Source: an uncultured Atopobiaceae bacterium (lineage in GTDB: Bacteria; Actinomycetota; Coriobacteriia; Coriobacteriales; Atopobiaceae). From it: a stretch of DNA of 64,000 bases. Each line of letters starts with the position of its first letter. The stretch's first letter is position 1. The stretch covers positions 1 to 64,000 of the forward strand of contig CALUHH010000008.1 of assembly GCA_944320385.1 (NCBI GenBank). The letters run 5' to 3'. A program made the translations under genes and the position numbers. This document shows positions 1 through 53,717 of the stretch, piece after piece. A model generated the notes under the pieces. The model was given only the letters and a program-made list of their open reading frames with translations. It ran no database searches and was not told where the DNA came from.

Positions 1-2
1 AC

Positions 3-74
3 AGCGCCTGCGGGGGCCTCCCACCCATGTCGCGCATCGTCGGCGTAAACAACGTCATGGCACACAACACTTAA
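3..74 (+). CDS. C-terminal end of an unidentified plus-strand gene (partial)
   Basis: An open frame enters from the left edge and ends at TAA (72-74), giving a tail that finishes SRIVGVNNVMAHNT. Nearly every codon ends in G or C, as in the real genes here, so I read it as the end of a true gene rather than chance. The product is not recognisable from 23 residues. The stop codon lies inside the TTAAGC of a 41-bp repeat unit, so the array begins at the gene end. It converges on nanE. Confidence 0.45.
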   Translation, partial: SACGGLPPMSRIVGVNNVMAHNT

Positions 75-117
75 GCGTCGGCCAGCCGAACATCCGGATG
101 GGCGGCGTTTTCTAAGC
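36..117 (-). repeat. Edge of a family-1 41-bp repeat array (two inverted-orientation units)
   Basis: Two units end in TAAGC at positions 76 and 117, exactly 41 bp apart, the same period and end motif as the arrays near 26 kb and 36.4 kb. The unit 77-117 matches the family well (CATCCGGATG, then a T-run and CTAAGC). The unit 36-76 is weak and overlaps the end of the preceding gene. Any direct-orientation half would lie outside the window. Confidence 0.6.
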
Positions 118-215
118 CATCGGGTACCGCGGTGACCCGGCGTCAACGTGCGCCAGAAGAAAGCCGCGGGCCCCAGTGCGAGACCCGCGGCTGCGTGACA
201 GGCGAGAAGACTCCC

Positions 216-19269: not shown

Positions 19270-19345
19270 GTTCTTCTCCCCTCCCGTGGCGTTCACGCAG
19301 TATGGTAGCGCGCGTGGTGCCGCGGTGCCCGGTGCGCGGCGGGGC

Positions 19346-19464
19346 GGTGCGGGAATCCGGGCATATGCGTGTTTTGGTGCGGGAATCCGGGCATATGCGT
19401 GTTGTGCGCACGCATTTCTCGGTAATCCCGCACCGATACACGCATTTCTCGGAAATCCGGCACG
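19346..19464. repeat. Family-2 array: two direct and two inverted 30-bp units
   Basis: Direct units start with GGTGCGGGAATCCGGGC at 19346 and 19376. Inverted units end at 19434 and 19464. Both spacings are exactly 30 bp. From the last direct start to the first inverted end is 59 bp, the same at all four family-2 loci. A short pseudo-palindrome GTGCGCAC is at the centre. Confidence 0.85.
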
Positions 19465-19492
19465 CGCTCACGCGGACGGACCCGGATACGCG

Positions 19493-25742: not shown

Positions 25743-25793
25743 GTTCTTCTCGTCCGTGCGTTCTTCTCGTCTGCGCGCTCTTCTCGTCCGCGC
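25743..25793 (+). repeat. Three tandem 17-bp units next to the 41-bp array
   Basis: GTTCTTCTCGTCCGTGC starts at 25743, with close copies at 25760 and 25777. Each contains the complement of the CGAGAAGRAC motif. The last copy runs into the first 41-bp unit. Confidence 0.8.
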
Positions 25794-26198
25794 TTAAGAA
25801 TCCCGCCTCGTCCGGAAAAACGGGGTCGCCGTGCTTAACAATCCCGTCTCGTCCGGGAAATCGGCGCGGCCGCGCTTAGCATTTGCGCCCCGTCCGGACT
25901 TCGGGCGCAATCGCGCTTAACAATTCCGCCTCGTTCGACGATGGGGACGACTCGTGCTTAAGAAAAGCGCCTCATTCGGACGGGACGCGCCTCGTAGTCG
26001 GGCGGCTCGCCTGGATAGAACGACTTTTCTAAGCGCGAAAGCACCAATTCTCCGGACAGGACGCGATTGTTAAGCAGCACGGGACCGCATCCCCGGACGA
26101 AGCGCGATTATTAAGCAGCCGCTCGCCGTCTTCCTGGACGAAGGCGATTTCTTAAGCGTGACCTGCCCTTCTCGCCAGATGAAGCGGAATTGTTAAGA
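25792..26198. repeat. Family-1 array: five direct and five inverted 41-bp units
   Basis: Direct units start with GCTTA at 25792, 25833, 25874, 25915 and 25956. Inverted units end at 26034, 26075, 26116, 26157 and 26198. Every step is 41 bp. Each unit has about 25 conserved bases (GCTTAAGAAT, two free bases, then CGYCTCGTCCGG) and about 16 variable bases. The 835 bp between hisZG and the next gene otherwise hold no convincing gene; only a GGCAGCTCCGT direct repeat near 26380 was noted. Confidence 0.92.
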
Positions 26199-26465
26199 CC
26201 CGGCAAGCGGTGCGGAACGGGATGCAATCTATGAGCAAAGCTCCGCATGGTCACGCACGATGACGTGCGCGACGTGCCTTCTCGACGTGCGGTCCGCTCG
26301 CCGCCCCAGCGCCACCGCCCGCCGAGCGATTTCACCGCCGCGGCGCCGGGGCAAGCCCCTCACCTGCGGGCGCAGCTCCGTGGCAGCTCCGTGGCAGACG
26401 AGCCGGCACCGACCCCTGATAGGCTCCCCTCACGCAACGCGGACAGCACGAGGAAGGGAGCGGAC

Positions 26466-28567: not shown

Positions 28568-28727
28568 GTCTTCCCCCTCGTCTGCATCAGTCAACCTTTT
28601 GATTTTCTCACCGCCGGGCGAGAAGAACGCGCTGCCGCGGGATTTAGCGCCGTATCACCACAGCGGGCACCTAACGACCGAGCGGACCCCCCGGCGCCGG
28701 GTTTCCGCCGTCCGCGCGCAAAACCCT

Positions 28728-28846
28728 GGTGCCTGATTCCCGCCATATGCGTGAAATGGTGCCGGATTTCCGTCATATGCGTGTTCTAGACACGCATTTC
28801 TCGCTAATCCGGCACCATTTCACGCATATGGCGGGAATCAGGCACC
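28728..28846. repeat. Family-2 array: two direct and two inverted 30-bp units
   Basis: Direct units start at 28728 and 28758, inverted units end at 28816 and 28846. Period is 30 bp and the centre 59 bp, as at 19.4 kb. CGTGTTCTAGACACG forms the central hairpin. Outside, AAAACCCTGGTGCC and a repeated GGCACCAGGGGTT (28841 and 28869) extend the symmetry. The array fills the gap between murJ and ybaK. Confidence 0.85.
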
Positions 28847-28912
28847 AGGGGTTCTAGGGCGGGGCACGGCACCAGGGGTTTTAGGGAGCGGGCGGCGGTG
28901 CTTGCCGGCGCG

Positions 28913-36216: not shown

Positions 36217-36251
36217 CGGGACGGTTGCGCCCGGAGCTTGAGGCTCTTCTT

Positions 36252-36576
36252 GCTTAGACTTTGTGCCTCGTCCGGAGCCTGCCGCCCCGTGCGCTTAAGG
36301 TTTGCCGTCCGTCCACGATTTTGGCGAAATCCCGCTTAAAGATCGCGGCGCGTCCGGGCATGCGGCGCTGGCGTGCTTAAACATTGCGTCGCGTCCGGGC
36401 ACGCAGCGTCACTGCGCTTAAGAATTTGGCCTCATGCGCAAGGGACGTGCCGCGTATGCGGACAACACCTCCAAATGAGACGACTTCTCTAAGCACGATC
36501 AAACCTCATCCCCGGATGAGACGGCTTTCTTAAGCACGTCGGCGCCGATTCTCCGGATGAGACGACATTCTTAAGC
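36252..36576. repeat. Family-1 array: five direct and three inverted 41-bp units
   Basis: Direct units start with GCTTA at 36252, 36293, 36334, 36375 and 36416. Inverted units end at 36494, 36535 and 36576. All steps are 41 bp. The distance from last direct start to first inverted end is the same as at 26 kb. The variable 16-base parts differ from unit to unit. The array fills the 420 bp between the two flavoprotein genes; no gene is seen there. Confidence 0.92.
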
Positions 36577-36638
36577 GCGCCGCAGCGACATCCAGTTGTG
36601 TGACAATAGGCCCGACCACCCCTCCTGAAAGGACTCCC

Positions 36639-38303: not shown

Positions 38304-38339
38304 AGCCGCTGGCTCCGGGTTCTTCTCGCTGATTGCCCT

Positions 38340-38495
38340 GGTGCCGGAATCGGGGCATCTGCGTGTTCTCGGCGCCGGTGCCGAAATCGGGGCATCTGCG
38401 TGTTTTCGACACGCATATGCCGCTATTCTGGCACCCACACGCTCATATGACGGCTTTCTGGCACCAAAACGCGCATATGACGCGATTCCGGCACC
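38340..38495. repeat. Family-2 array: two direct and three inverted 30-bp units
   Basis: Direct units start with GGTGCCG at 38340 and 38377, with 7 extra bases between them. Inverted units end at 38435, 38465 and 38495, at 30-bp steps. The 59-bp centre is conserved. The array sits between two converging genes. Confidence 0.85.
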
Positions 38496-38517
38496 GGGGA
38501 CGGGGCGGGGCGCCGCG

Positions 38518-53546: not shown

Positions 53547-53567
53547 CCGGCCTGCCCTCACCGCCCA

Positions 53568-53687
53568 GGTGCGAGAATCCCGCCATATGCGTGTCCCGGT
53601 GCCGAAATCCGGCCATATGCGCGTCCACGGAACCAAAAAGGCCGCATCTGCGTACGGGCGACACGCAGATGCGGCGATTTAGGCACC
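53568..53687. repeat. Family-2 array: three direct and one inverted 30-bp unit
   Basis: Direct units start at 53568, 53598 and 53629 (the third shifted by 1 bp and diverged). One inverted unit ends at 53687. The 59-bp central distance is kept. The array sits between two converging genes, HAD and glutamine synthetase. Confidence 0.82.
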
Positions 53688-53717
53688 AGGGCGAACCGGG
53701 AGGACGCTGCCGAGCGG

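Follow-up and report, generated by a model that had tools for sequence, protein, structure and literature searches.

Mirror-symmetric arrays of 41-bp units with helically phased centres in intergenic regions of a genus of Atopobiaceae

The stretch of DNA analysed here (the window) comprises 64,000 nucleotides of a contig of an uncultured Atopobiaceae bacterium and contains two complete arrays of 41-bp units, in which a block of direct units is followed by a block of inverted ones (Table 1). The array at 36 kb is placed between two FAD-dependent oxidoreductase genes, and the array at 26 kb, with five direct and four to five inverted units, between hisS/hisG and a gene encoding a 139-aa product without a Pfam match. 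Both are flanked by housekeeping genes, and no par or rep genes were seen adjoining them. At the 36-kb locus, GCTTA starts at 36252, 36293, 36334, 36375, and 36416 in the five direct units, and the three inverted units end at 36494, 36535, and 36576, all in steps of 41 bp, as described in an earlier note on this DNA. The distance of 78 bp from the last direct start to the first inverted end, reported there for both loci, is exact in each of them (36416 to 36494 and 25956 to 26034); counted between the starts of the 28-nt motif described below, it equals 84 bp. This identical geometry goes with centres that are only weakly alike when aligned, the 29-bp gaps of the two loci being 66% identical, where all pairs of gaps average 44%.

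Table 1. Coordinates of repeat features in the window (D, centre distance between motif starts)
Feature	Position	Strand	Details
36-kb array, direct arm	36249..36440	+	five units; 28-nt motif starts 36249, 36290, 36331, 36372, 36413
36-kb array, centre gap	36441..36469	.	29 bp between motifs; D = 84
36-kb array, inverted arm	36470..36579	-	three units; motif starts 36497, 36538, 36579
26-kb array, direct arm	25789..25980	+	five units; starts 25789, 25830, 25871, 25912, 25953
26-kb array, centre gap	25981..26009	.	29 bp; D = 84
26-kb array, inverted arm	26010..26201	-	units 26037, 26078, 26119, 26160; weak fifth at 26201
Broken third array	1..120	-	contig start; IS481-type end, TIR ...GGCACACAACA, bases 1-69
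Second family	19345..19465	.	two direct, two inverted; centre distance 60
Second family	28692..28847	.	direct 28692 (weak), 28727, 28757; inverted 28817, 28847; centre distance 60
Second family	38339..38496	.	direct 38339, 38376; inverted 38436, 38466, 38496; centre distance 60
Second family	53567..53688	.	direct 53567, 53597; inverted 53688; centre distance 91 (60 + 31)

The use of a PWM trained on the units of both arrays allowed us to divide the unit into a 28-nt motif, CGYGCTTAARRATCGCGNCYCRTCCGGG, a less strict GG (positions 33-34), and a variable remainder that extends to position 41; the units of the 36-kb direct arm score 22-35 bits with a period of 41. The variable part, for which 16 bases had been proposed in the earlier note, is shorter (about 6-13 nt), as the conserved motif takes up 28 nt, or about 35 nt with the GG at 33-34. 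Information within the unit peaks every 9-10 bp or so, at positions 3-8, 14-16, 22-26, and 33-34. A chance match between the two loci is excluded by a search of the whole genome to which the window belongs (G000, an Atopobiaceae MAG of 2.24 Mb in 58 contigs): the pattern GCTTARNNWTN5CNCRTCC, with one mismatch at most, has 204 + 183 = 387 matches in this 2.2-Mb genome vs. none for the reversed pattern, and a pattern of the centre has 37 + 35 matches vs. none.

The stretches fetched around the pattern matches in G000 contain about 63 array places with 440 units. All 51 complete arrays consist of two to seven direct units followed by one to nine inverted ones; the opposite order was found in none of them, and neither was a -+ junction. 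The CGCTTA box forms the outer side of every unit. Of the 326 steps within an arm, 307 measure 41 bp and 11 measure 42 bp, and the two arms of an array are unequal in length. The units are about 65-70% identical, some neighbours within arrays being near-identical, and are separated by spacers of about 13 nt; the motif is retained while the spacers diverge to about 35-40% identity.

With D defined as the distance from the last direct motif start to the first inverted one, the 51 arrays of G000 are distributed among values of 63 (3 arrays), 73 (12), 74 (3), 83 (3), 84 (26), 104 (1), 105 (1), and 115 (2), and those of the other array-bearing species of the genus among values of 63 (2), 72-74 (16), 83-84 (37), 93-94 (4), 105 (2), and 116 (1). 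All 113 centres, from 12 species, lie no more than 1.5 bp from the lattice 84 + 10.5k, so that the helical phase is conserved and the length is not. The fit over the 12 species gives a step of 10.46 and a best period of 10.5 (10.45 bp in G000 alone), and the comparison of the six class means of D with uniform placement gives p = 2e-4. Common descent does not explain the lattice, because the 51 centres of G000 fall into 38 clusters of unrelated gap sequence, although some arrays are paralogous and the centres are therefore partly non-independent. The earlier note named copies with other centre lengths as a finding that would refute its view, and such copies exist: in 22 of the 51 complete arrays D is neither 83 nor 84, so that the centre has no fixed length. 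As all the other lengths differ by whole helical turns, the centre is nevertheless under a geometric constraint, which acts on rotational phase.

No ORF overlaps an array in any of the 63 places. Where both neighbouring genes are known, the gaps that contain arrays are convergent in 15 cases, tandem in 18, and divergent in one, that of the 26-kb array. The array-free gaps of these stretches comprise 5 convergent, 42 tandem, and 19 divergent ones (Fisher p = 1e-5 when convergent and divergent gaps are compared between the two sets). In many cases the array starts 17-36 bp past a stop codon, the gene boundaries being approximate, as called by a simple codon-usage script. Another motif, GTTCTTCTCGCC, is located about 8-30 bp past many stop codons on the sense strand (in the window, e.g., at 962, 8828, 38320, 53513, and 53536). 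Its density is eight times higher outside genes; it is present in array spacers as well, and in a 17-bp tandem that adjoins the 26-kb array (25744-25785). Possibly, it is a signal of transcript 3' ends.

Comparisons between arrays and between species concern the question of how the arrays arise and change. Five arrays of G000 (C3, C12, C15, C28, and C56) and, more weakly, two others (C20 and C24) share a block around the centre. The closest paralogous copies are 95-100% identical at the centre, fall to background within one to three units, and have unrelated flanks, the homology between array copies stopping inside the arrays. Highly similar pairs of units from different arrays occupy the same arm and rank in 27 of 36 cases, and such pairs inside one array are mostly neighbours. 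The C2 array has an orthologue in G016 that retains its centre and inner units and has four extra outer direct units; the homology of the flanks restarts just outside the array. As paralogues share the centre only and an orthologue has extra outer units, the centre block is the copied part and units change outside of it, in agreement with the suggestion of the earlier note that the centre is the founding part and that units are gained or lost at the outer ends. The outermost units are weaker than the others (27.3 vs. about 31 bits). At the site of the 36-kb array, both flanks and an apparent decayed remnant are found in G018, and no array in G016 and G009. The 113 outer flanks share no end sequence, and neither conserved outer ends nor a TIR or target duplication was found.

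Array units also serve as targets of insertion sequences. At the start of the window contig, an array unit abuts, at CTTAAG (70-75), the end of an IS481-type element and is followed by a unit at 93-120. This element, the transposase of which matches rve and LZ_Tnp_IS481, ends with TGTTGTGTGCCA, always adjoining CTTAAG or its close variant in array units, and an intact direct CTTAAG duplication around it is present in G001. A copy with a CTTAAG duplication lies at 2130-3280 of L240. In two species, which differ in half-site, its insertions are concentrated in array units. The second insertion sequence, with the end TGATATGTAATTCC, is located at TTA/AGGAT and only inside array units (L074, L126, L054, L002, L007, and L008). 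Many contigs, including that of the window at its start, end at these two insertion sequences. In the 64-kb window, CTTAAG occurs at nine sites outside genes and at none inside; as it is almost confined to arrays, a simple target preference of the insertion sequences suffices.

Of 140 genomes of the family, 11 have three or more tandem GCTTA units at 41 bp, and these 11 are among the 31 members of the genus of the window. The scan of the class for three tandem units gave 8 of 398 genomes, from this genus only, and the scan of named genomes gave one locus, in an uncultured Atopobiaceae MAG. Phage records gave no match, and the only two matches in viral contigs are AT-rich and unrelated; our search of the open literature found no account of comparable arrays, be it from this group or with the same layout. 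The number of arrays varies among close relatives from about 3 to about 63, being low in G016 and G018, which are close to G000. This patchy distribution (11 of 31 members of the genus) indicates that the arrays are not essential.

All array-bearing species have in common the CGCTTA box on the outer side, the pitch of 41 bp, and a phased centre, whereas the inner half-site is clade-specific. It is CRTCCGG (TCCGG) in G000, G016, and G018, CATCGCG (TCGCG) in G009, TTATGGCA (ATGGCA) in G019, and GTTGGAGGG (TTGGAGG) in G001, G010, G027, and G030; it is of TGCGC type in G021 and G029 and of GTTGCG type in G006 and G014. At the hisS locus, an array is present in both G000 and G009, in the latter with its own half-site, and further loci in G009, G029, and G019 keep arrays despite a differing half-site. 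The array at the rplC site is orthologous in G016, with 97% identity. In the TTGGAG clade, array positions are mostly different, with about 2 of 38 in common. Chance sharing, roughly estimated from the number of flanking genes, would be about 10%. A near-identical TCCGG-type array with a centre of 105 occurs in G000 (C40:8544-8813), G009 (C14, L136), and G010 (C134, L033), the last two of which otherwise have a different half-site. Its neighbours in G009 include genes judged by eye to be helicase-like and methyltransferase-like. This suggests horizontal transfer of that array.

Repeats of other families are present as well. The second family, with the unit GGTGCCGGATTCCCGCCATATGCGTG and a pitch of 30 bp, is unrelated in sequence to the 41-bp family, and its units are also direct, then inverted, at the 3' ends of genes. 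Four arrays of it are in the window and two on other contigs, with the centre distance of 60 in five and 91 in one; the array at 38339 has orthologues in G016 and G018. Repeats of G002 (L163 and L293) comprise one of direct-then-inverted layout with a 51-bp pitch and one that alternates strictly, and the repeat arrays of G020 (L294) have a divergent layout.

Both a rigid pitch and a helical phase maintained over the centre, as expected of an array of protein-binding sites, are thus found here. We consider it probable that the 41-bp arrays are bound by a putative double-strand DNA-binding protein and carry a dyad-symmetric, phased complex, the role of which would most likely be an organising or boundary one. 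Each unit would be the site of one sequence-specific protomer, contacting the same face of the helix in about four consecutive major grooves, at CGCTTA, at the AT step with GCG, at RTCCGG, and at the GG of positions 33-34. The protomers would be placed head to tail along each arm at the rigid pitch of 41 bp, and the two arms would run towards each other around the dyad in the same rotational register. The need for this register would explain why the centre gap changes by whole helical turns only. In our reading, neighbours within an arm may touch each other, which would fix the pitch, and across the centre the rotational register alone may count. The resulting mirror-symmetric nucleoprotein complex would form in the 3' intergenic region and hold both halves face to face, most likely organising the chromosome or acting as a bidirectional boundary at gene ends. 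The anatomy of the arrays, the 10.5-bp quantisation, the 3' intergenic bias, the clade-specific half-sites, the dispersal of centre blocks, and the turnover of outer units are seen in the sequences, whereas the existence of the protein, its assembly around a dyad, and its task in the cell are inferred; a role as structural element or boundary would suit the position of the arrays at the ends of genes.

Two results count against this reading, namely the patchy distribution of the arrays and the search for the binding protein, which gave no candidate; nor does any neighbouring gene recur as one. A MarR gene beside arrays in four species was considered as an autoregulated binder and rejected, being genus-wide and present also in array-free species. 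RAYT was rejected as the driver of the arrays, as the array-bearing G019 has no Y1_Tnp and the 16 RAYT loci examined have no arrays. The ends of Tn3 carry TTAAG and span 38 bp, for which reason the Tn3 transposase (PF01526) was considered too; it was rejected, as it is encoded by none of the 31 genomes of the genus.

An alternative that we regard as unlikely is that of a selfish, non-autonomous mobile repeat, in which a founder block (the centre with one or two units per side) is copied into intergenic regions by a putative recombinase and then changes in size by recombination between units, these being recombinase sites without a host role. The seven arrays at unrelated sites with only the centre block in common, the wide range of array numbers in close relatives (about 3 to about 63), the 3' intergenic position typical of tolerated insertions, and half-sites that are clade-specific, as are transposase sites, all agree with it. 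The arrays have no conserved outer ends, inverted terminal repeat, or target duplication, however, and some orthologous arrays are stable (rplC in G016, 97%; hisS in G009, with its own motif); moreover, the Tn3 transposase is absent from the genus and RAYT from the array-bearing G019. The chance duplication of a sequence in tandem, i.e., a neutral satellite, would account for the near-identical neighbouring units, but it leaves the mirror symmetry of 51 of 51 arrays, the helical quantisation in 12 species, and the retention of the motif amid diverging spacers unexplained, and we find it hardly credible.

It is also quite improbable that the arrays function as RNA, their transcripts forming a long hairpin by which transcription is terminated or the 3' end of the mRNA is protected. 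The position 17-36 bp after many stop codons and the low folding energy of the transcript are consistent with such a role: folded as RNA, the whole window array beats shuffles with z = -4.6. This is, however, expected of any inverted array, since the arms are inverted. Units in mirror positions are hardly more similar than other left-right pairs (0.673 vs. 0.660, p = 0.07), nor are spacers (0.391 vs. 0.386), and this comparison of similarity in the G000 arrays revealed no covariation of symmetric units or spacers. The quantised centre lengths would be meaningless for a hairpin loop, and the arms are of unequal length. A step of 10.5 bp is that of B-DNA, and a step of 11 bp that of A-form RNA; the latter predicts distances of 62, 106, and 117, and 63, 104/105, and 115/116 were seen. 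The Rfam search of the window returned one tRNA only and no match to an array, and the reading as a structured RNA family is not supported. Nor is the single unit a hairpin, as the DNA folding of six units from four species is no better than that of shuffles (z from -0.5 to +1.1) and does not indicate a palindrome. This bears on a REP/BIME element maintained by a RAYT transposase, which we regard as very improbable. The arrays resemble it in being intergenic, 3' of genes, targets of insertion sequences, and clade-specific in sequence, and Y1 transposases are encoded by 28 of 31 genus members; but the unit is not palindromic, its orientation changes in blocks and never alternates, the array-bearing G019 (99% complete) has no Y1 transposase whereas the array-free G011, G008, G017, and G022 have four to six, and no array lies within about 1.4 kb of any of the 16 RAYT loci examined in array-bearing species. 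Three defining features of REP/BIME elements are thus contradicted.

Known systems share single features with the 41-bp arrays. Plasmid centromeres (parC/ParR) and iterons are head-to-tail arrays of cooperative binding sites with helical phasing. The 41-bp arrays have both features, binding being predicted here, but they are mirror-symmetric, are dispersed over about 63 loci in one genome, where the known systems have one or a few, and have half-sites that differ even in sister species. MITEs, and transposon ends to which transposase binds at several sites, carry direct sites on one side and inverted ones on the other and disperse a common block, as do the arrays, which in contrast have no fixed ends, TIR, or target duplication, a free number of units, and unrelated outer flanks; the reading as MITE or Tn3 ends was rejected, as shared ends, target duplication, and a Tn3 transposase are all missing. 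Regular units and variable spacers recall CRISPR arrays, in which near-identical direct repeats are separated by spacers of at least 20 nt; that reading was rejected also, the units being only about 65-70% alike, the spacers about 13 nt long, and half of the array inverted. The REP/BIME sequences with their RAYT (PMC2817692) are, like the 41-bp arrays, extragenic, located 3' of genes and not at divergent promoters, present in hundreds of copies, species-specific in sequence, variable in unit number, and hot spots of IS elements (PMC1525189). The 41-bp arrays differ from them in the non-palindromic unit, the direct block followed by an inverted one instead of alternation, the rigid 41-bp pitch, the helically phased centre, and the independence of RAYT, by which they can be set apart from a type of repeat with which they might be confused.

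There is a fair chance that the 41-bp arrays represent a new class of bacterial intergenic repeat element. They may belong to a previously unrecognised class of chromosomal element, composed of mirror-symmetric, helically phased arrays in dozens per genome and served by a fast-evolving DNA-binding protein, the inner-half specificity of which would have been replaced at least four times in one genus with the box, pitch, and phase fixed and some loci kept, and of which at least two orthogonal families (with 41-bp and 30-bp pitch) would coexist in one genome. Helical quantisation that holds for a spacer over sequences and species without a common origin of the spacer is a rare and purely genomic sign that a protein complex sits on double-stranded DNA. 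If our interpretation is true, a DNA-binding protein that evolves fast is to be expected, with dozens of sites at the ends of genes on which it assembles in mirror symmetry, and the arrays would provide a natural experiment in how a protein and its hundreds of sites evolve in concert, as well as an entry point to chromosome organisation in a host-associated lineage.
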